A stretch of 46,184 bases of DNA, taken from the NCBI GenBank assembly GCA_036387335.1, contig DASVTZ010000191.1, forward strand, positions 1 to 46,184. Direction: 5' to 3'. Position numbers and translations under genes: made by a program. Shown here piece by piece: positions 1 through 16,779 of this stretch; within the stretch, counting starts at the first letter, position 1; each line of letters starts with the position of its first letter. Below the pieces are notes generated by a model. That model had not been told where the DNA came from and searched no databases. It saw nothing but the letters and a program-made list of their open reading frames with translations. This DNA is from Longimicrobium sp. Lineage in GTDB: Bacteria; Gemmatimonadota; Gemmatimonadetes; Longimicrobiales; Longimicrobiaceae.

Positions 1-1603
1 CGAAGATGGCGGCGTAATCCGACGACATCTCGCCGGTCTGGCCGCCGAGCGAGCGGGTGAAGCGCTGTGCCCGCCCGGCTTCGAGCTCCGCCAGGCTCGC
101 GAAGGTGAAGGTGCCGGACGCGTCCGCTGCTCCGCGCCGCACGACCCGCTCTGCCTGGTACGCGCCGCCGAGCAGGATCTGGTGCCCGCCGTTCAGGGAG
201 AGCGTGAAGCGCTCGGCGGCCTCCAGCGCGGAGCGGTCCTCGTCCGGAATGGAAAAGGGCGCGGCCCCGAACGACACGAGTGTGCCACCCACGCCGGTGT
301 CCTGACCCAGCCACAGCCTTCCCGTGGGACCCTCGTACGTTCGCAGCGAGCGCTGGGTGCCGCCGGAACGGTACACCGTCAGGTCGTTGCCCGCGCGCCC
401 CATCCGGGAGACGAGCTGTGCGAAGACCCCGCCGTCCTTCCCCTCGTCGCGCCCGCCGCTGGTGATGGCGAGGGGGGAGCCCAGAGCGCCGTCGGATCTC
501 CGGGCCCGGCCGTCCAGGCGCAGGGTGGCGGTGTGGTTGGCGCCGGGCAGAAAGTCGATGCGCGCGATCGTCGAGGCGGCATGGGTCCGCCGCTCCCCGC
601 CAGCGCCCTCGCCGATCCCGAACCCCCGGATGAGCTGGAGAAATCTCCGCAGCGAGTCGGGTGAGATTCCGTAGCGCAACGCTTCCGCGCCCGCGGGATC
701 CAGCGGTGAGCTGAACGAGCTGCGCGTGGTCGCCTGCACGGCGCCGTACACGAACAGGCGTCCGCGCACGAGGGGCCCGCCACCCCCGCCTCCCACCTGC
801 GCCCAGAGGGGCCCCGCCGCGCCCGAGGCACCGGCCGGGCCGGCATACTGCAGGCTTGGATGCTGGATGGAGGTACGGAACACCCCGCCCCACAGGTTCG
901 TCCCGCTCAGGGTGCGGCCGGCGATCTCGCCCCCCGTGAACTGCCCGCGCGACACGTCATACGGGTGGGCGAGGACGCCCGCGGCGGCCATCGCCTCCGG
1001 AGGAAGCGAGCTTGCATCGAACCCGGCGCCATCCACCGTGACGCGGTTGCCGGAAGGAGGCTGTCCCGACACGGAAATCGCCCCCGCACCGGACGGCACG
1101 TACTGCCCCGAAATACCCGATGAACCGGCGAGATCGCCCGGATCGCCGGGGTACGCCGCGGCGCTGTGCCCGCTCAACGATGAGAGGCCGCTGCCTGGAG
1201 ATTCGCCCCGCCGCACGGGCACGGGCGCTCTTGCGGGAGCCTGCACCAGCAGCGGATCGAGCGTGTAGCCCCGCTCTTCGGCCGCGGTGAGACGCACATT
1301 GTGCGGAGCCGGCCCGGCCAGCACCAGCGCCGTCGCGGCCACGTACCCTTCTTTCTCCACCGTCACCACGTGCTCACCCCGCACGTCCAGGTGGTAGCGC
1401 CCCGCCGCGTCCGTGCGCGCCGACACCGCGAGTCCGCCCGCCGACGGACGCGCGGTAACCTGTGCGTCCGGCAGCGGCTTCCCGTCCGGGCCGGTGACGA
1501 CCCCCGCGATGTACGTGGCGCCGCCTGCGTCCTGGGCGAGGGCCGGTGCGCCGCCGGACACCAGCAGGATTGCCGTGAGGCATGCCCCCGCGACGAACCG
1601 CAT
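1..1603 (-). CDS. Oar-like TonB-dependent outer-membrane receptor with N-terminal carboxypeptidase-regulatory domain (C-terminus outside window)
   Basis: The chosen ATG opens a signal peptide (MRFVAGACLTAILL, then small residues up to ALAQ). Residues 28-110 read as a carboxypeptidase-regulatory-like beta-sandwich (AGVVTGPDGKPLPDAQV, then DAAGRYHLDV and KEGYVAA). A plug-like region follows, with SGNRVTVDGAGFDAS and GQFTGGEIAGRTLSGTNLWG, then the alternating pattern of a beta-barrel. Family knowledge: this architecture matches Oar-type TonB-dependent receptors of the outer membrane, whose substrate is usually unknown. The frame is open to base 1, so about 534 residues are visible and roughly half the barrel is missing. 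No good Shine-Dalgarno is visible. An in-frame GTG just after the stop of the upstream PDZ gene would add an Arg-rich leader and looks less likely. It is the last visible gene of a co-directional set with the PDZ, DsbA-like and Cys-rich genes, so it could handle or export the same substrate; that is inference. Confidence 0.8.
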   Translation of the reverse strand, partial: MRFVAGACLTAILLVSGGAPALAQDAGGATYIAGVVTGPDGKPLPDAQVTARPSAGGLAVSARTDAAGRYHLDVRGEHVVTVEKEGYVAATALVLAGPAPHNVRLTAAEERGYTLDPLLVQAPARAPVPVRRGESPGSGLSSLSGHSAAAYPGDPGDLAGSSGISGQYVPSGAGAISVSGQPPSGNRVTVDGAGFDASSLPPEAMAAAGVLAHPYDVSRGQFTGGEIAGRTLSGTNLWGGVFRTSIQHPSLQYAGPAGASGAAGPLWAQVGGGGGGPLVRGRLFVYGAVQATTRSSFSSPLDPAGAEALRYGISPDSLRRFLQLIRGFGIGEGAGGERRTHAASTIARIDFLPGANHTATLRLDGRARRSDGALGSPLAITSGGRDEGKDGGVFAQLVSRMGRAGNDLTVYRSGGTQRSLRTYEGPTGRLWLGQDTGVGGTLVSFGAAPFSIPDEDRSALEAAERFTLSLNGGHQILLGGAYQAERVVRRGAADASGTFTFASLAELEAGRAQRFTRSLGGQTGEMSSDYAAIF

Positions 1604-1698: not shown

Positions 1699-2121
1699 TC
1701 AGGAGCCGCCGCGGGCGGATGGCTGGGGGGCGGGAATGCTCGTGATGGTCACGTCACGCGTGCTGTTGCCGCGCCGGATCCTGAACACGTACACCTTCCC
1801 CGGCCGGCCCACGAGCGATTCGGGGTCCCGCCCGTCGGTTCCGTTCACGAGCAGGATCACGTCTCCCGCCGCGACCCCCAGCTTCGCCGCGGGCGACCCC
1901 GGGTCGACGGACCGGACCGTCGGATAGGTCGCCCATCTCATCCCGCCTCCCGGGGAAAACCGCGGCTGTCCGCTGAGATAGATCCCGGTGTACGGCACGC
2001 GGGCGCGCGCGCCCGCGGACCGCGTCTGGCCCTGGGAGACGCTGGGCGGAGCCCCCGGCTGGGCCGCGGCGGCATCCGCACAAGCCGCAAGCAAGATCAA
2101 ACTGAACACGATCCGCGTCAT
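1699..2121 (-). CDS. Small secreted PDZ-domain protein
   Basis: The protein has about 140 residues. The start used is the internal ATG giving MTRIVFSLILLAACADAAAAQ, a clear signal peptide; an ATG ten codons earlier would put charged residues before it. The mature part holds one PDZ domain (about residues 45-125) with YPTVRSVDPGSPAAKLGVAAGDVILLVNG in pieces: the VRSVDPGSPA carboxylate-binding loop, the AGD turn and the ILLVNG strand. No protease domain is attached, so it is a free-standing periplasmic PDZ module, which in other systems binds C-terminal peptides. It lies 37 bases after the DsbA-like gene and about 95 bases before the receptor gene, all on the minus strand, so co-transcription is likely. 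Its ligand is unknown. Confidence 0.75.
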   Translation of the reverse strand: MTRIVFSLILLAACADAAAAQPGAPPSVSQGQTRSAGARARVPYTGIYLSGQPRFSPGGGMRWATYPTVRSVDPGSPAAKLGVAAGDVILLVNGTDGRDPESLVGRPGKVYVFRIRRGNSTRDVTITSIPAPQPSARGGS

Positions 2122-2158
2122 CACCGCTCCATCGTCTGGGTGGATGTACACCGCGCCC

Positions 2159-2821
2159 TCAACGCCCGGCGCTCTTCAGCTCTCGCTCCACCATGGCCTC
2201 CAGCCGGGCCAGCCCGGAGGAGGTGAGGAGCGTCCCGTTCACGATCAGCGCGGGCGTCCCGGACACCGCGAGCCGTTTCGCCGCGTCGACATCCTGCTCG
2301 ATTCCCGCGGCGGGGGCTTCACTCGCCATACACTGCGCGAGCTCCGCAGGGTCCGGGACGCCCGCGGCAGCCGCGAGAGTCGTCCACGGGATGCTGCCGA
2401 TGGAGTCCTGATGGGCGAACAGCGCGTCGTGATACGCCTCGAAGCGCCCCTGCCTTCCGGCGCACTCGCTCGCCGTCGCAGCGGATTGTGCGTGGGTGTG
2501 GTACGGCAGGGGAAGATGCCGGTACACCACCGCGACATCCTCCGGGTGCGCCTGCCTAATCGCGCGCAGACGGCCGGACATGGTGCGGCAGAAGGGGCAC
2601 TGGAAATCGGAGAATTCGACAATGGTGACCCGCGCGCCTGGCGGTCCCATCCGCCGCCCGCGGGCGTAGCTGCGCCAATCGGGGACGGGGCGAGTGTCCT
2701 CGGAGTATTGGGCGGCCGGAAGGCTCGGTGGCGCCAATTCCCGGCGGATCGCCAGTCCCGTCACGGTTAGCGCGCAAAGCACGAGTATCGCCGTCGCGGT
2801 GTTCGCAAGGAGCTTGTTCAC
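2159..2821 (-). CDS. DsbA-family thiol:disulfide oxidoreductase, membrane-anchored or secreted
   Basis: The protein has 220 residues. An N-terminal hydrophobic segment (about residues 8-25, TATAILVLCALTVTGLA) serves as signal anchor or signal peptide. The thioredoxin fold starts at about residue 62 (GARVTIVEFSDFQCPFC), with the active-site pair Cys75-Pro-Phe-Cys78. The helical insertion (YHTHAQSAATASECAGRQGR) is typical of DsbA/DsbG-like thioredoxin_4 proteins, and the cis-proline loop reads VSGTPALIVNG. Known role of the family: oxidising or isomerising disulfides in the periplasm. An extra cysteine pair sits in the insertion (Cys in ASECAGR) and before the cis-Pro loop (LAQCMAS). The gene follows the six-cysteine mini-protein by about 108 bases, so that peptide is an obvious candidate substrate (inference). 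Confidence 0.85.
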   Translation of the reverse strand: MNKLLANTATAILVLCALTVTGLAIRRELAPPSLPAAQYSEDTRPVPDWRSYARGRRMGPPGARVTIVEFSDFQCPFCRTMSGRLRAIRQAHPEDVAVVYRHLPLPYHTHAQSAATASECAGRQGRFEAYHDALFAHQDSIGSIPWTTLAAAAGVPDPAELAQCMASEAPAAGIEQDVDAAKRLAVSGTPALIVNGTLLTSSGLARLEAMVERELKSAGR

Positions 2822-2880
2822 GCGTGCTCAGCGAAGGAGAGATGAACGCGGCACCATCAGAACACCGGTCGCGGCTGGAC

Positions 2881-2916
2881 GCTCTGGGGACCTGCTCCGA
2901 TGCGTGCCCCCAGAGC
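2881..2916 (-). other. Intercistronic hairpin between the Cys-rich peptide gene and the dsbA-like gene
   Basis: The arms GCTCTGGGG (2881-2889) and CCCCAGAGC (2908-2916) form a perfect 9-bp stem around an 18-base loop, 14 bases after the stop of the Cys-rich gene. No T-run follows on the minus strand, so it looks more like an RNA-stabilising or attenuating hairpin than a full terminator. It could keep the peptide message more abundant than the downstream genes. Confidence 0.45.
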
Positions 2917-2929
2917 CCTCGCTAGACGC

Positions 2930-3166
2930 TCAGCTCGGCGCCGGGATGCACTCGATGTTGGTGATCTGGCAGGATTCCACCGTGTAGGTGCATCGCGCCC
3001 AACCAGACGAGCAGTAGCCTGCGGCGTACGAGCAGTACTCCTCGACCGACGCGCGGCAGTCGAACGCCTCGGAGCTCGCGTCGGCCCGGGCGGGGCTCGC
3101 GAGCAGGCCACCCCCGCAGAGGATGGTCAGGAGCGAAGCGAGGCACATCTGGGTTCTGCTCGGCAT
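2930..3166 (-). CDS. Small secreted six-cysteine protein of unknown function
   Basis: The protein has 78 residues. The start is fixed by an excellent Shine-Dalgarno (GGAGG, six bases before the ATG); a longer frame upstream lacks one. A signal peptide (MPSRTQMCLASLLTILCGG, then LLASPARA) is followed by a mature part of about 50 residues with six cysteines: EAFDC, VEEYC, AAGYC, WARC, VESC and NIEC, ending in IPAPS. Six cysteines allow three disulfides, and the spacing (7, 6, 6, 6 and 6 residues between them) is strikingly regular. I do not recognise the family. The gene is first in a row with a DsbA-like oxidoreductase, a PDZ protein and an Oar-like receptor, and has its own promoter. Possible roles are a disulfide-rich effector, bacteriocin-like peptide or structural surface peptide; nothing in the sequence decides between them. 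Confidence 0.75.
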   Translation of the reverse strand: MPSRTQMCLASLLTILCGGGLLASPARADASSEAFDCRASVEEYCSYAAGYCSSGWARCTYTVESCQITNIECIPAPS

Positions 3167-3229
3167 GGAATCCTCCGTCGTAAGTGACCGCGGCGTCAAG
3201 CAAACGCTTTCCGCCAATCCACGATCAGC

Positions 3230-3258
3230 AGCATAACCGGAGGAGTTTCCCGAGTCAA
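3230..3258 (-). promoter_or_regulatory. Sigma-70-type promoter of the Cys-rich peptide operon
   Basis: On the minus strand TTGACT (3258-3253) and TATGCT (3235-3230) are separated by exactly 17 bases, inside a locally AT-rich stretch. Transcription would start near 3222, leaving a leader of about 56 bases before the GGAGG-ATG of the peptide gene. Confidence 0.6.
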
Positions 3259-6517: not shown

Positions 6518-6606
6518 TTTCTCTGTGCAGCCCAACCATCCCGGTGCATCGCCAAGCACAGCGCCGGGTCGAGCACGGGCAGCCACGTGGGGCTGCCCCT
6601 ACGGAC

Positions 6607-6830
6607 ATCGGTGCGCGCGGCGGCGGTCGAGGCGCGGCGAGGTCGACGGGAATCGGTGCGCGCGGCGGTAGTCGAGGCGCGGCGAGGGTGGGCAGACACG
6701 CGCGTCAACGAACATCGGTTCGCCTGGCGGTGGTGGAGGCGCGGCGAGGGTACGCAGACACGCAGGTCCACGGACATCGGTGCGCGTTGGCGGTGGTCGA
6801 GGCGCGGCGAGGGTGGGCGCGATAAATCGC
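6607..6830. repeat. Tandem array of about four imperfect ~62-bp units
   Basis: Units start at about 6607, 6652, 6714 and 6776. Each begins ATCGGTGCGCG or a close variant, continues with GGCGGTGGTCGAGGCGCGGCGAGG, here split as GGCGGTGGTCG and AGGCGCGGCGAGG, and ends in ACACGC(A/G)-type DNA; the first unit is short. The remainder of the 6518-6919 gap contains GGGCAGCCACGTGGGGCTGCCC-type DNA, seen inverted near 31760-31793, and no gene. Confidence 0.6.
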
Positions 6831-6919
6831 GCCCCTACGACGGATGCGGACCGGGAGTCCGCGGAGGCGGACTTTGTGCTGTTGTTGCCGCGAGTTTACT
6901 CGCCCGGTCTGAGGGGGCC

Positions 6920-11130: not shown

Positions 11131-11203
11131 GGCGCCGGATGCGAGAAATGGCGAACTGAGGCTAAGTGCTTATCCTGCAACGCGCAGCGAGTAGGGCACG
11201 CGC

Positions 11204-11217
11204 GGACCACGTCGTGC
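11204..11217 (+). promoter_or_regulatory. Possible sigma-54-like -24/-12 element of subtilase 1
   Basis: GG (11204) and GC (11216) are ten bases apart and followed directly by TAAGAGGGGC, a decamer that also follows the equivalent element of subtilase 2. Apart from GG/GC the consensus match is poor, and GG-N10-GC is common by chance in GC-rich DNA, so it rests on the parallel with the paralogue. Confidence 0.25.
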
Positions 11218-11279
11218 TAAGAGGGGCGGGCGCCGGGCCGATCGTCGCCAATCGCCACCTCTCACCCTCCGGGGGAGCC

Positions 11280-13745
11280 ATGCTCCGTTCAGCACCACGC
11301 CGGTTGCTGCTGCTGGTCGCCGTCACGCTGCTCTGCGCCACCAACGCGGTCGCGCAGGCCATTGATCCCGCACTCAGGAACGTCCTCGCGTCGGCCCGCA
11401 CGGCCGAGGTGATCGTCACCTTCAAGGGGAACAGCGCCCCCGCGCTCCTCGACCTGAACGTGCTGCGCGCCGTCGGCATCACGGGCGGCACCACCTTCCG
11501 CTCGCTGCCGATGGTGGGGACGGTGGCGACCCTGGCGCAGGTGAACGCGCTGGCCGCGAACCCGCGGGTGCGCTCGGTGTTCCTCAACAAGCGGCTGACG
11601 TACTTCAACTACGACGCGCGCCACCTTACGGGCGTGGAGCGGCTGCGGGCCAGCGCCGCCATGACCGCGCTCAACCGCGGCCTTCCCGTCACCGGCAAGG
11701 GCGTGGGCCTCTACATCGCCGACAGCGGCATCGACGCCACGCACCCCGACCTGCAGCTCGGGAAGAACGTCGTCCAGAACGTGTGGGCGCCGATCCAAAA
11801 GGATCTGGTGGGCGAGGAGACGGGCTTCCGTCCCGTGATCGTGGTGGAGAACCAGCCCAACACGGACAACGGCGGCAGCGGGCACGGCACGCACGTGGCC
11901 GGCATCTCGGGCGGCACCGGCCAGGCGTCCGCCGGGCGGAACTCGGGGGTGGCGCCGGGCGCCAGCCTGGTGGGCTACGGCTCGGGAGCGGCCATCTTCG
12001 TGCTCAACGCCATCGGCAGCTTCGACTACCTGCTGACCAACCAGGCGCGCTACGGCATCCGGGTGATGAACAACTCCTGGGGCTCCAACGGGCCCTTCTA
12101 CCCGGACGATCCGGTCAACGTCGCCTCGCGCATCGCGGCGGAAGACCGCAACGTTGTGGTGGTGTTCGCGGCGGGGAACGGCACCTATCCCAACTCGCAC
12201 AACCCGTACGCCCGCGCGCCGTGGGTGATCTCGGCGGCCAACGGCACCAAGTCCGGCACGCTGGCGGAGAGCTCGTCCAAAGGCACCCCGGGCGGGCCCA
12301 AGACGGTGACGGCCGCCAACGGCGAGGTCATCACCTGGCTCGACGAGCCCACGGTGACGGCGCCGGGCACGGACATCGTCTCCGTTCGCGCCTCCATCAG
12401 CGCCAGCACGAGCACGGACCCGTTCTACACGGTGATGAGCGGCACCTCCATGGCCAGCCCGCACGTGGCCGGCATCGCGGCGCTGATGCTGGAGGCCAAC
12501 CCGCTGCTCACGCCGCAGCAGGTGAAGCAGATCCTGAAGGCGACGGCCACGCACATGCCGAGCGCGCTTCCCGGGGCGGAGGACAAGGGCTTCGAGGTGG
12601 GCGCCGGCTACGTCAACGCCTTCGCCGCCGTGCAGAAGGCGTTCGACCTGAGCACGCCGTTCGGCCGCATCCTGGACGGCTACGAGGTGCTGGGGCACGC
12701 GGAGATGAAGGTGCTGCGCGACCATGCCTTCGACTACAGCCCGCTGGCGCCCACGGGGAGCTACAAGCGCACCTTCTCGGTCGAGCCGGGCGCGGACCGC
12801 CTGGAGGTGGAGATCGCCTTCGACGGGCTGGAAGTTCCCGCGTACGGCAGCGCGGCCAACTCGCTGACGCTGGACGTGTACGATCCGCAGGGGAACCGCT
12901 ACTACACGTACGACCTGCTCTTCGCCGTCTACGGCACGAACCGGCTGGTGGTGGTGGTGCCCAATCCGTCGGCCGGCACGTGGACGATGGAGACCAAGAT
13001 GTTCACGCTGCTGGGCACGGAGGGGAACCTGGCCGCCGCGCCGGACAAGGTTCGCGAGCAGGTGCGCACCTTCACCTTCGACGCTCCCGCGATCGCGGAC
13101 ATCCAGGGGAGCGCGGACCGCGGCGCCATCGAGTGGGCGCTGACCAACGGCTACATGGGGCTGTGCGCGGAGGGGGCGTTCTGCCCCGACCAGCCGCTCA
13201 CCCGCATCCAGCTGGCCCGCAGCCTCACGCAGTTCGCGGCGATCCGGCAGTCGCTCCCCTTCAACGGCGGCGCCACCTTCAGCGACGTCGCCGAGGCGGA
13301 CCGGCCGTTCGCGGAAGCGGTGGCCGCTCCCGGGGCGGCGCTCCGCGACCCGCAGTACCGCTACGGCGGCGTGATGGAAAGCTCGGGAAGCACCTTCAAC
13401 CCCGGCAACGGCATCAGCCGCGGCCACTTCGCCCGGATCCTGGTGCGCGCCATCGGCGGCGAGGGTGCCGCGCTCGCCCACACGGGTGACGTGACGGTGG
13501 CCTACAACGGCCAGACGTACGTGGTGGCCGACCAGAACTCCATTCCGGCGGCGGTGCGCGGCCACGTGCACGCGGCGATCAACTCCGGGATGCTGAACGT
13601 GTTCTGGAAGATCGAGCAGGGTCCGCTCGACCCGGCGCCGGTGCTCAAGCCCTACTTCTTCCCGACGTCCGACGCGTCCGCGCCCGTGACGCGCGCCGAG
13701 GCCGCCGTGGCGATCTCCCGCTACCATACGCAGTTCTTCCAATAG
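11280..13745 (+). CDS. Secreted subtilisin-family serine protease with C-terminal SLH repeats (paralogue 1)
   Basis: The protein has 821 residues. The ATG after GGGGGAG opens a signal peptide (MLRSAPRRLLLLVAVTLLC, then ATNAVAQ). Residues 40-105 are an I9-like propeptide (TAEVIVTFKGNSAPAL, VRSVFLNKRL). The S8 catalytic domain runs from about 130 to 460. The triad is Asp148 (GLYIADSGID), His202 (GSGHGTHVAG) and Ser390 (SGTSMASPHVAG), with the oxyanion Asn in FAAGNG. A beta-sandwich region (about 490-610: TFSVEPGADRLEVEI, LDVYDPQGNRYYTYDL) follows. Three SLH-like repeats end the protein: IADIQGSADRGAIEWALTNGY with LTRIQLARSL, FSDVAEADRPFAEAV with ISRGHFARILVRAI, and a last one with VTRAEAAVAISRYH. 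It ends in HTQFFQ. Its place between gspG and the rest of the gsp cluster makes it a likely T2SS substrate (inference). SLH repeats usually anchor to cell-wall polymers; their partner in this Gram-negative is unclear. Confidence 0.92.
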   Translation: MLRSAPRRLLLLVAVTLLCATNAVAQAIDPALRNVLASARTAEVIVTFKGNSAPALLDLNVLRAVGITGGTTFRSLPMVGTVATLAQVNALAANPRVRSVFLNKRLTYFNYDARHLTGVERLRASAAMTALNRGLPVTGKGVGLYIADSGIDATHPDLQLGKNVVQNVWAPIQKDLVGEETGFRPVIVVENQPNTDNGGSGHGTHVAGISGGTGQASAGRNSGVAPGASLVGYGSGAAIFVLNAIGSFDYLLTNQARYGIRVMNNSWGSNGPFYPDDPVNVASRIAAEDRNVVVVFAAGNGTYPNSHNPYARAPWVISAANGTKSGTLAESSSKGTPGGPKTVTAANGEVITWLDEPTVTAPGTDIVSVRASISASTSTDPFYTVMSGTSMASPHVAGIAALMLEANPLLTPQQVKQILKATATHMPSALPGAEDKGFEVGAGYVNAFAAVQKAFDLSTPFGRILDGYEVLGHAEMKVLRDHAFDYSPLAPTGSYKRTFSVEPGADRLEVEIAFDGLEVPAYGSAANSLTLDVYDPQGNRYYTYDLLFAVYGTNRLVVVVPNPSAGTWTMETKMFTLLGTEGNLAAAPDKVREQVRTFTFDAPAIADIQGSADRGAIEWALTNGYMGLCAEGAFCPDQPLTRIQLARSLTQFAAIRQSLPFNGGATFSDVAEADRPFAEAVAAPGAALRDPQYRYGGVMESSGSTFNPGNGISRGHFARILVRAIGGEGAALAHTGDVTVAYNGQTYVVADQNSIPAAVRGHVHAAINSGMLNVFWKIEQGPLDPAPVLKPYFFPTSDASAPVTRAEAAVAISRYHTQFFQ

Positions 13746-14139: not shown

Positions 14140-14178
14140 TGCATTAGAACGGTGAAGCGGTTTCACTGTTTTAGTGCA
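14140..14178. promoter_or_regulatory. Paired 17-bp motif upstream of subtilase 2
   Basis: TGCATTAGAACGGTGAA (14140-14156) and, inverted, TTCACTGTTTTAGTGCA (14162-14178; reverse complement TGCACTAAAACAGTGAA). The two are 22 bases apart, two helical turns. The second matches the subtilase 1 site at 16 of 17 positions, although the surrounding intergenic DNA of the two paralogues is not alike. Confidence 0.5.
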
Positions 14179-14250
14179 ACAGGAAGATCCGAAGGGAGGT
14201 GCGAAAATCGTAAGCTGTTTATCGGGCGCAGGATAGCTCGGGCGGAAGTT

Positions 14251-14265
14251 TGGCGGCACACGTGC
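14251..14265 (+). promoter_or_regulatory. Possible sigma-54-like -24/-12 element of subtilase 2
   Basis: TGGCGGCACACGTGC has GG and GC ten bases apart, with TGGC and TGC matching the consensus. TAAGAGGGGC follows two bases later, as it does at subtilase 1. It lies about 80-90 bases downstream of the paired 17-bp motif. Confidence 0.35.
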
Positions 14266-14322
14266 ATTAAGAGGGGCCAGTCCAGAAGGACTCGTTCGCC
14301 ACCCAACACGTGGAGCCCCCTG

Positions 14323-16779
14323 ATGCACCTGCCGATGATCCGGCGACTGTTCGCGCCCGTAGCAGCCCTCCTCATCGCGGCGGCCCCCGGGTTCGCCCAG
14401 AGGATCGACCCGGAGCTCACCCGCACGCTGGCCAGCCTGCCCGCGGGGCGCACCGCGGAAGTGATCGTCACCTTCGAAGGGAACTCCGCGCCGGCCGTCG
14501 CCGACCTGGATGCGCTCAAGGCGATCGGCATCCGGGGCGGCATCACCTTCCGGTCGCTGCCGATGGCCGCCGTGCTGGCCACCGGCGACCAGGTGCGGGC
14601 GCTGAGCGGCAACACGCGGGTGCGCTCGGTGTTCCTCAACAAGCGGCTCAGCTACTCCAACTACGACGCGCGCCACCTGACCGGCGTTGAGCGGCTGCGC
14701 GCCGACCGCGCCATGACCACGCGCAACGGCGGCCTTCCGGTTTCCGGCAAGGGCATCGGCATCGTGATCAACGACTCCGGCGTCGACGGCACGCACCCGG
14801 ACCTGCAGTTCGGCAAGAACCTGGTGCAGAACGTCCTGGCGCCGGTCTCGGGAAGCGACCTGGCGGTGACGGGCTTCGCGCTCGCCCCCGCGCTGGAGAA
14901 CACGGTGAACACCGACCTCGGCAGCGGGCACGGCACGCACGTGGCCGGCACCGTCGGCGGCACCGGGCAGGCGTCGGCGGGCAAGCAGTCGGGCGTGGCC
15001 AACGGCGCCAACCTGATCGGCTACGGCTCGGGCGCCGTGCTCTTCGTGCTCAACGCGCTGGGCGGCTTCGACTGGACGCTGGCCAACCAGGGGCGCTACG
15101 GTATCCGCGTCATCACCAACTCGTGGGGCTCCAGCGGCGGCTTCGATCCGGACGACCCGATCAACGTGGCATCGCGCATCGCCAACGAGCGCAACATCGT
15201 GGTGACCTTCGCGGCGGGGAACGAGGGCTCGGCGCCGGACACGCACAACCCCTACGCCAAGGCTCCCTGGGTGATCTCGGTGGCGGCGGGCACCAAGACG
15301 GCCACGCTGGCCGACTTCTCCTCGCGCGGCCGCCCGGGCGGCGCCCGCACCGTGACGTCGCAGAGCGGTGAGGTCATCACCTGGTTCGACGAGCCGGCCA
15401 TCACGGCGCCGGGCGTGGCGATCACCTCGGCGTACGCCCACACGGGCGCGCTGGGCGCCCTCGCGCCGGACCCCACCAACCCGTACTACACCGTCATGGA
15501 CGGCACGTCGATGGCGACGCCGCACGTGGCGGGGATCGTGGGGCTGATGCTGCAGGCCAACCCGCTGCTCACGCCCGACCAGGTGAAGCAGATCATCCAG
15601 GAGACGGCCAGCAAGATGCCGGGCTACCGCGCGTTCGAGGTGGGCGCGGGGTACGTGAACGCCTACGCCGCGGTGCAGAAGTCCTTCGACCTGTCCACCC
15701 CCTTCGGCCGCACGCTGACGGTGGAGACGGTGCCGGCGCAGGTGCGCGAGGACGCGGCCTACGACAAGACGTTCGACTACTCGCCGGTCTCGCTGCCGGG
15801 CACGTACAAGCACACCTTCCAGGTGACGCCGGGCGCGAGCCTGCTGGAGGCCAAGATCGAGTTCCAGGGCGTGAACGTGCCGGCGGTGGGCAACGCGGGC
15901 AACCCGCTCCTCTTCGACGTGTACGACCCGAACGGAAACCGCTACAACGCCTTCGACCTGTACTTCGCGCAGAACGGCACCACGCGGCTGGTGCTGGTGG
16001 TGAACAACCCGACGCCGGGCACCTGGACGGCCGAGGTGAAGGCGCTCACTCCCAAGGGCCAGGAGGCGGGCAACTTCGCCACCTTCCCCGACAAGGTGCA
16101 CGAGACGGAGATCCTGACCTTCATCACCCCGCCGGCCATCGCGGACATCCAGGGGCACGCGGCCCAGGGCGCCATCGAAGTGGCGCTGGTGAACGGCTAC
16201 CTGGGGCTCTGCGCGCCCGGCTCGTTCTGCCCGGACGCGGACCTCACCCGCATCGACCTGGCCCGCGGCTTCACGCAGTTCGGCGCGGTGCGCCAGAACC
16301 TGCCGCTGGGCGGCGCCAGCACCTTTACCGACGTGTCCGCGGCGGACAAGCCCTTCGCCGAGGCGGTGGCGGCGCAGGGCGCGGCGATGCGGGACCGGGA
16401 GCACCGCTTCCGGGGCATCATGACCGGCAACGGCTCCAGCTTCGTGCCGGGCGGCACCGTCCTCCGCTCGCAGCTCGCCCGCATGCTGGTGCGCGGCATC
16501 GGCGGCGAGGCGGCGGCCGCGGCCCACAACGGCGACGTGACCTACACCTACAACGGGCAGACGTACGTCATCGCGGACCAGGCCCAGATCCCCACGGCGG
16601 ATCGCGGCCACGTGCAGGCGGCGATCAACTCCAACATGCTGAACGTCTACGCCGAGATCGAGCAGGGTGCGCTGGACCTGACGCCGAAGCTGAAGTTCTA
16701 CTTCCGGCCGACGAACGTGGTGAAGCGCGGCGAGGCGGCGCTGGCGATCGCCCGCTACCATGCGCAGTTCTTTCAGTAA
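14323..16779 (+). CDS. Secreted subtilisin-family serine protease with C-terminal SLH repeats (paralogue 2)
   Basis: The protein has 818 residues; the ATG lies seven bases after GGAG, and the next ATG (MIRRLF) four codons on is possible. A signal peptide ends APGFAQ. The I9-like propeptide (TAEVIVTFEGNSAPAVADL, VRSVFLNKRLSYSNYDARHL) is nearly the same as in paralogue 1. The triad is Asp151 (IVINDSGVDG), His203 (GSGHGTHVAG) and Ser396 (DGTSMATPHVAG). A beta-sandwich region, then three SLH-like repeats (IADIQGHAAQGAIEVALVNGY, FTDVSAADKPFAEAV, GEAALAIARYH) end in HAQFFQ. The two proteases align end to end with strong identity, so the pair arose by tandem duplication. Divergence is greatest in the loop after the catalytic Asp (around residue 165-195) and near the active-site Ser, which suggests different substrate specificity. 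It is a likely T2SS cargo, as for paralogue 1. Confidence 0.92.
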   Translation: MHLPMIRRLFAPVAALLIAAAPGFAQRIDPELTRTLASLPAGRTAEVIVTFEGNSAPAVADLDALKAIGIRGGITFRSLPMAAVLATGDQVRALSGNTRVRSVFLNKRLSYSNYDARHLTGVERLRADRAMTTRNGGLPVSGKGIGIVINDSGVDGTHPDLQFGKNLVQNVLAPVSGSDLAVTGFALAPALENTVNTDLGSGHGTHVAGTVGGTGQASAGKQSGVANGANLIGYGSGAVLFVLNALGGFDWTLANQGRYGIRVITNSWGSSGGFDPDDPINVASRIANERNIVVTFAAGNEGSAPDTHNPYAKAPWVISVAAGTKTATLADFSSRGRPGGARTVTSQSGEVITWFDEPAITAPGVAITSAYAHTGALGALAPDPTNPYYTVMDGTSMATPHVAGIVGLMLQANPLLTPDQVKQIIQETASKMPGYRAFEVGAGYVNAYAAVQKSFDLSTPFGRTLTVETVPAQVREDAAYDKTFDYSPVSLPGTYKHTFQVTPGASLLEAKIEFQGVNVPAVGNAGNPLLFDVYDPNGNRYNAFDLYFAQNGTTRLVLVVNNPTPGTWTAEVKALTPKGQEAGNFATFPDKVHETEILTFITPPAIADIQGHAAQGAIEVALVNGYLGLCAPGSFCPDADLTRIDLARGFTQFGAVRQNLPLGGASTFTDVSAADKPFAEAVAAQGAAMRDREHRFRGIMTGNGSSFVPGGTVLRSQLARMLVRGIGGEAAAAAHNGDVTYTYNGQTYVIADQAQIPTADRGHVQAAINSNMLNVYAEIEQGALDLTPKLKFYFRPTNVVKRGEAALAIARYHAQFFQ

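Follow-up and report, generated by a model that had tools for sequence, protein, structure and literature searches.

What does the short gene heading a four-gene row at one end of a Longimicrobium sp. contig make, and why does a gene for a DsbA-like oxidoreductase follow it? The contig (DASVTZ010000191.1, assembly GCA_036387335.1; C191 in the following) is 46,184 nucleotides long and was analyzed whole, base 1 of this window being the contig start; the genome measures 5.8 Mb and is split into 265 contigs. The row codes for a six-cysteine mini-protein precursor (P0001), a DsbA-family protein with a CPFC active site, a PDZ-domain protein and an Oar-like outer-membrane protein. A preliminary description had listed this row, the six cysteines, a GGAGG start and a sigma-70 promoter with 17-base spacing, and all of these are found in the sequence. 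From gene content and conservation, we hold it rather probable that these genes together produce a disulfide-rich mini-protein, fold it by oxidation and export it. Cassettes of this type recur with very different mini-proteins, which suggests that Gemmatimonadota have a class of secreted mini-proteins not described so far.

P0001 has a probable signal peptide (residues 1-28) and a 50-residue mature part, the cut, placed by eye after ARA, falling between MPSRTQMCLASLLTILCGGGLLASPARA and DASSEAFDC. The six cysteines of the mature part are spaced 7-6-6-6-6. Within its own genome (G000; G, C and L numbers denote genomes, contigs and loci) P0001 has paralogues on C70 (51% identity over 62 residues, E 1.9e-12) and C179 (E 1.3e-3). 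Each paralogue gene is followed by DsbA and PDZ genes, whose products are 40-56% identical to those of the window, and has an Oar gene alongside. The C70 peptide gene (L006:3250-3540, G000:C70) carries an 11-bp tandem duplication which shifts the frame past the fourth cysteine; this copy is therefore broken or misassembled, and was aligned across the frameshift solely to compare cysteine positions. The DsbA, PDZ and Oar genes of the C70 cassette look intact despite the frameshifted peptide gene.

DsbA and PDZ profiles retrieved two more cassettes in the same genome (C2, C105) and four in relatives (G013:C1, G015:C93, G017:C1, G017:C6). Complete peptide/DsbA/PDZ/Oar cassettes thus number nine in four genomes, five in the Longimicrobium genome and four in three congeneric ones, gene order being variable, and this recurrence excludes chance. 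The four genes do stay together in relatives, the point on which the preliminary description had staked its proposal; conservation of the peptide outside the strain, the other such point, holds in part, the P0001 sequence itself not being found there, peptides of the same kind lying in the same position in relatives. In the G012:C133 cassette a propeller protein takes the place of Oar. A HisS-like gene and a small conserved one lie in the neighbourhood of both the C179 cassette (L007, G000:C179) and locus L069 (G013:C123). At L069, G013 retains the PDZ gene only, and peptide, DsbA and Oar were not found; the difference therefore suggests loss or gain of a whole cassette. A PDZ-Oar pair with neither a DsbA gene nor a recognisable peptide gene was observed in L092 (G000:C96:26000-38906).

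Linkage of peptide and DsbA genes extends over the phylum. A profile derived from 19 cassette DsbA proteins, used at E < 1e-42 on 298 Gemmatimonadota genomes, detected a membrane-anchored DsbA subfamily in 79 of them, and 60 subfamily loci were fetched by DsbA score alone. Open reading frames (ORFs) were counted as strict candidates when starting with ATG, preceded by a Shine-Dalgarno-like site, 50-120 residues long, with a hydrophobic, positively charged N-terminus and at least four cysteines past the core. Of 89 subfamily DsbA genes, 55 have a strict candidate next to them on their own strand (44/64 in the fetched loci, 11/25 in the family loci, where the figure is not blind, the rules having been set after the first cassettes were read), and 3 have one on the opposite strand. 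Elsewhere in the fetched loci only 6 strict candidates were found over about 389 kb, and generic DsbA genes of other phyla have one in 1 of 80 cases; phylum and control figures were obtained with the rules unchanged. The sole positive among the 80 is from Chloroflexi, a cysteine-rich signal-peptide ORF lying directly downstream of the DsbA gene (L166:8547-8816). Among 24 further Gemmatimonadota loci with lower-scoring DsbA proteins, generic types (e.g. domain-fused, VKOR-adjacent) have no candidate, and five with an anchored N-terminus have one. A profile of nine genus peptides, made with no DsbA input, also falls beside a DsbA gene in G162, G108 and G082, with weak E-values. Long DsbA frames in L071, L081 and L085, at first sight fusions, are shadow frames and were rejected as such.

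The peptides vary greatly, yet share a pattern. Predicted mature peptides hold an even number of cysteines (4, 6, 8 or 10) in 58 of 64 cases, artefacts removed; the probability under a coin-toss expectation is about 5e-12, a figure overstated since some peptides are related. Three artefacts were dropped, L072 (wrong frame; the true L072 peptide has six cysteines), L206 and L212:6184. Peptides of orthologous cassettes are 35-73% identical, and evolve at a rate above or about equal to that of their DsbA; the proportion of nonsynonymous differences (pN) is lower than that of synonymous ones (pS), and cysteine columns are kept in 5/5, 4/4, 7/7, 6/7, 6/6 and 8/8 cases, cysteines being retained even in relatives of 35-56% identity. 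By this evolutionary pattern the cassette peptides look like real, fast-changing disulfide proteins. Peptide genes are tandemly duplicated in L071, L081, L084, L174 and L222, each of L071 and L081 having two tandem CC-CC-C-C peptides. The regular cysteine spacing, initially taken as a mark by which to find relatives, does not extend to other peptides, which have 4, 6, 8 or 10 cysteines and spacings varying between families; the even 6-6-6-6 therefore belongs to the window peptide and not to the class. P0001 has no relative outside its genome, and the C70 copy is frameshifted by the 11-bp duplication, as might be expected of a chance or decaying ORF beside unrelated genes. This reading is strongly disfavoured, and we consider it highly improbable, as the paralogues keep cysteines and promoter, orthologous peptides are under purifying selection, and the linkage of peptide to DsbA is statistically strong.

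Partner gene families were counted within 4.5 kb. Beta-propeller proteins were found in 26 loci (PF17170 above cut-off in two of those tested), Oar in 15, PDZ in 8, MacB/FtsX permeases in 8, HlyD in 4, AcrB-type RND proteins in 3. Well-supported partner changes on the DsbA tree are at least seven for the propeller, four for MacB and two for Oar. The constant pair is made up by the peptide and the membrane-anchored DsbA, the other partners being modular. A core that takes in PDZ and Oar, as first envisaged, is thus too narrow; the place of Oar can be filled by a beta-propeller protein, by a permease of MacB type or by an RND pump. HlyD and AcrB-type RND pump genes follow the cassettes of L071, L074 and L081, and a FAD-oxidase-like gene lies downstream in L071 and L075. 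The variety of partners bears on the direction of transport. The folded peptide might be a released scavenger of metal, haem or another nutrient, or the accessory of a surface receptor, the Oar-like transporter taking in either the loaded peptide or the ligand. Import is the classical function of TonB-dependent transporters, and a peptide-chelator uptake system would likewise pair a barrel with a small secreted peptide; yet sister cassettes hold exporter-type proteins (MacB/FtsX, HlyD, AcrB-type RND) or a propeller instead of Oar, even cysteine parity and DsbA point to disulfides rather than to metal binding, and Oar is the one subclass with a reported export role (PMC6434023), so that uptake seems unlikely to us.

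The window DsbA matches DSBA (PF01323; 1.4e-20, 74.3 bits vs. a cut-off of 25.6) and Thioredoxin_4 (PF13462; 8e-22, 78.6 bits vs. 23.2). In 19 aligned cassette proteins CPFC and the TP motif of Thr-cis-Pro type are invariant or nearly so, and the window protein also has a second conserved cysteine pair. Relatives in the PDB are DsbA (4pwp) and BdbD (3eu3); cassette proteins have the fold family and the CxxC active site in common with these oxidoreductases, but form a separate membrane-anchored subfamily linked to mini-protein genes. A VKOR gene resides elsewhere in the genome, at C177. The PDZ protein matches PDZ_6 (1.2e-08, 35.0 bits vs. 27). Of the Oar-like protein the first 565 codons are present up to the contig end; they include a CarboxypepD_reg domain (PF13620; 1.5e-13, 51.4 bits vs. 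32.3), found also in the C70, C2 and C105 Oars, and are 47-48% identical to the complete C70 Oar. The barrel model PF25183 scores 93.9 bits (cut-off 30) in the C70 paralogue and is also found in C2 and C105; in the window, where only the start of the barrel is encoded, it scores 17.9 bits, below cut-off. A plug-like conserved stretch separates N-terminal extension and barrel in cassette Oars. At the start of contig C213 lies the C-terminal half of an Oar of the cassette kind (model positions 598-1196, vs. 2-553 in the window); this is probably the continuation of the window gene, which is therefore probably complete in the cell. When the genome was searched with a profile of cassette Oars, the four complete ones scored 1641-1793 bits and the next protein 941, a gap due in part to the way the profile was built; the gap argues that cassette Oars are a subfamily of their own.

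Expression signals set peptide genes apart in the genus. Every one of the 10 peptide genes from genus cassettes that have PDZ and Oar is preceded by the motif TTGACn-15..19-TAnnnT, vs. 4 of 250 among the other genes of these loci; the motif is rarer outside the genus (4 of the 56 remaining peptide genes). In 8 of the 11 genus cassettes listed, a perfect stem of 8 bp or more comes after the peptide gene, vs. 28% of control genes and 5% of shuffled sequences. Intercistronic stems range from 8 to 13 bp in most genus cassettes, the C70 copy having 9 bp, as does the perfect stem GCTCTGGGG/CCCCAGAGC between the peptide and DsbA genes of the window. The latter has no T-run, and is therefore more likely a partial block or an mRNA stabiliser than a full terminator. 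Promoter and stem-loop together suggest the usual operon layout for a first product needed in excess.

These data also bear on the idea that DsbA may serve the envelope generally, the Oar barrel included, and that the peptide may be an unsecreted periplasmic helper or redox sensor. Conserved cysteine pairs of Oar (4/4 columns kept between C2 and G013) would fit such a role. In contrast, Oar is absent from most loci in which a subfamily DsbA accompanies a peptide; the peptide is found beside the enzyme more constantly, frequently in tandem copies (the loci named above); separate generic DsbA genes and VKOR exist; and the promoters and stem-loops of the peptide genes suggest that the product is made in bulk. 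A general envelope function is in our opinion improbable.

P0001 has no match in Pfam, NCBIfam or among PDB sequences, and no relative outside its genome in a peptide search of contigs or among plasmids; weak matches in G013 and G004 (E 0.05-0.09) contain internal stops and were rejected. The other cassette peptides that were scanned gave only weak matches in Pfam and NCBIfam, all below cut-off, and most of them belong to no known family there. Single-sequence AlphaFold2 folds residues 30-78 as helix-strand-strand, with a mean predicted local distance difference test (pLDDT) of 81.9 and a predicted template modelling score (pTM) of 0.53. Since two of the five models are near pLDDT 62, and no solved PDB fold matches, this fold is to be taken as a hypothesis. 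A defensin-like CS-alpha-beta fold was rejected despite the helix-strand-strand model, as cysteine spacing lacks the CxxxC motif of the helix and the CxC motif of the strand, and no PDB fold matches. Membership in the NVEALA family (PF14055) was also rejected, as none of 150 Gemmatimonadota genomes, the Longimicrobium one included, match, and a Bacteroides control is positive.

The gene row suggests a route for the product. The first gene has a strong promoter and is followed by the stem-loop, because of which the peptide may be made in excess. Sec would take the precursor to the periplasm, where signal peptidase would cleave it, and the co-encoded membrane-anchored DsbA would form three disulfides in the peptide and be recharged by VKOR. 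The PDZ protein may act in the periplasm, as a holder or an adaptor. By analogy with Oar and PopC, the TonB-dependent transporter of Oar type would carry the folded mini-protein through the outer membrane; sister cassettes have a propeller lipoprotein, MacB permease or RND pump where Oar would be. The probable targets of the product are other cells, which it would antagonise or signal to. Antagonism or self/non-self signalling agrees better than a housekeeping role with the fast evolution at fixed cysteines, the many differing copies per genome and the tandem copies. Production and oxidative folding are well supported by gene anatomy; export via Oar and the final role we infer. The disulfide-rich secreted product with its own oxidase and strong expression signals, proposed at the outset, is hence supported, passage beyond the outer membrane being only plausible.

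Several data weigh against this route. Some cassettes miss one part (L082 has no DsbA, L072 no PDZ), and 34 of 89 subfamily DsbA genes have no strict candidate beside them. Disulfides, secretion and activity of the peptide are predicted from sequence, and excess expression from consensus sites. Known TonB-dependent transporters mostly import, and Oar could be an importer or a receptor; its own conserved cysteines could make it a DsbA substrate. Plug (PF07715) was not reported at E 0.01 in the C70, C2 and C105 Oars, and no immunity gene was recognised in the cassettes.

Features of the window locus are collected in Table 1. Elsewhere in the window, degenerate repeats of about 60 bases (GGTGCGCG...GGTCGAGGCGCGGCGAGG) occupy intergenic DNA at 6540-6840, and two tandem paralogous genes (11166-13745 and 14152-16779) each code for an exported, subtilase-like protein whose C-terminal tail is repeat-like and, by eye, resembles SLH domains.

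Table 1. Coordinates of the elements of the mini-protein cassette in the window
Feature	Position	Strand	Basis or remark
Six-Cys mini-protein precursor (P0001), 78 aa (amino acids)	2930..3166	minus	first gene of four-gene row
DsbA-family oxidoreductase, predicted membrane-anchored, CPFC	2159..2821	minus	Pfam DSBA/Thioredoxin_4 and alignments
Small exported PDZ-domain protein (predicted)	1699..2151	minus	Pfam PDZ_6 and alignment
Oar-like outer-membrane barrel protein, CarboxypepD_reg N-terminal extension, cut by contig end	2..1696	minus	Pfam and paralogue identity
Sigma-70-like promoter TTGACT-17-TATGCT	3230..3258 (TTGACT 3253-3258, TATGCT 3230-3235)	minus	sequence
Ribosome-binding site GGAGG	3172..3176	minus	sequence; five bases before ATG
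Intercistronic stem-loop, 9-bp perfect stem, 18-base loop, no T-run	2883..2918	minus	sequence

A broader reading, which we put forward tentatively and would not yet call probable, is that hypervariable ribosomal disulfide mini-proteins are spread over the phylum, each with a dedicated membrane-anchored DsbA and interchangeable exporters, Oar-type TonB-dependent transporters being a dedicated outward route for folded mini-proteins. If true, this poorly cultured phylum would hold a large unannotated source of disulfide mini-proteins (possible antibiotics, signals, binding scaffolds), and one could test in a simple way whether small folded proteins generally leave the cell by transporters of the Oar class. 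As the peptides have little in common beyond signal peptide and cysteines, the dedicated DsbA is a sequence handle for genes which similarity searches miss.

Known systems resemble the cassette in part. NVEALA peptides of Bacteroidota reside near genes for 6-bladed beta-propeller proteins; as the cassette peptides, they are small, exported and contain cysteines, and a propeller is a neighbour in the 26 loci counted here. The window cassette, unlike NVEALA neighbourhoods, has no propeller. In Myxococcus xanthus Oar is needed for secretion of PopC (PMC6434023). Both systems feature a TonB-dependent transporter of the Oar class that is extended N-terminally by PF13620; PopC is moved outwards, a route which for the cassette cargo we infer. 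The PopC cargo is a cytoplasmic protease, with no dedicated DsbA or PDZ gene, whereas here a Sec-exported mini-protein with disulfides, its gene lying in the same row as that of Oar, is the candidate cargo. The heat-stable enterotoxin STII of E. coli follows a Sec, DsbA and MacAB-TolC route (PMC5985334), and is likewise a small Sec-exported peptide which receives its disulfides from DsbA in the periplasm before outward export, MacB-type permeases being found in some sister cassettes. STII relies on housekeeping DsbA and a general pump, unlike the cassette, and the likeness is one of route, no sequence relation being claimed. Staphylococcal TMcin clusters encode their own DsbA (TmcD), and the disulfide is required for killing (PMC13252029). 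A peptide gene clustered with its own DsbA-like oxidoreductase is common to both; TMcins differ in being Gram-positive products with one disulfide and a transmembrane helix, associated with an S2P protease and an ABC exporter, and in lacking Oar, PDZ and propeller. The open literature searched yielded no description of these cassettes, in agreement with the early statement that no system with this gene order had been described; the evidence is weak, most subscription journals being outside the search. Each element has a precedent; what appears new is the combination, its spread over the phylum and the pairing with transporters of the Oar class.
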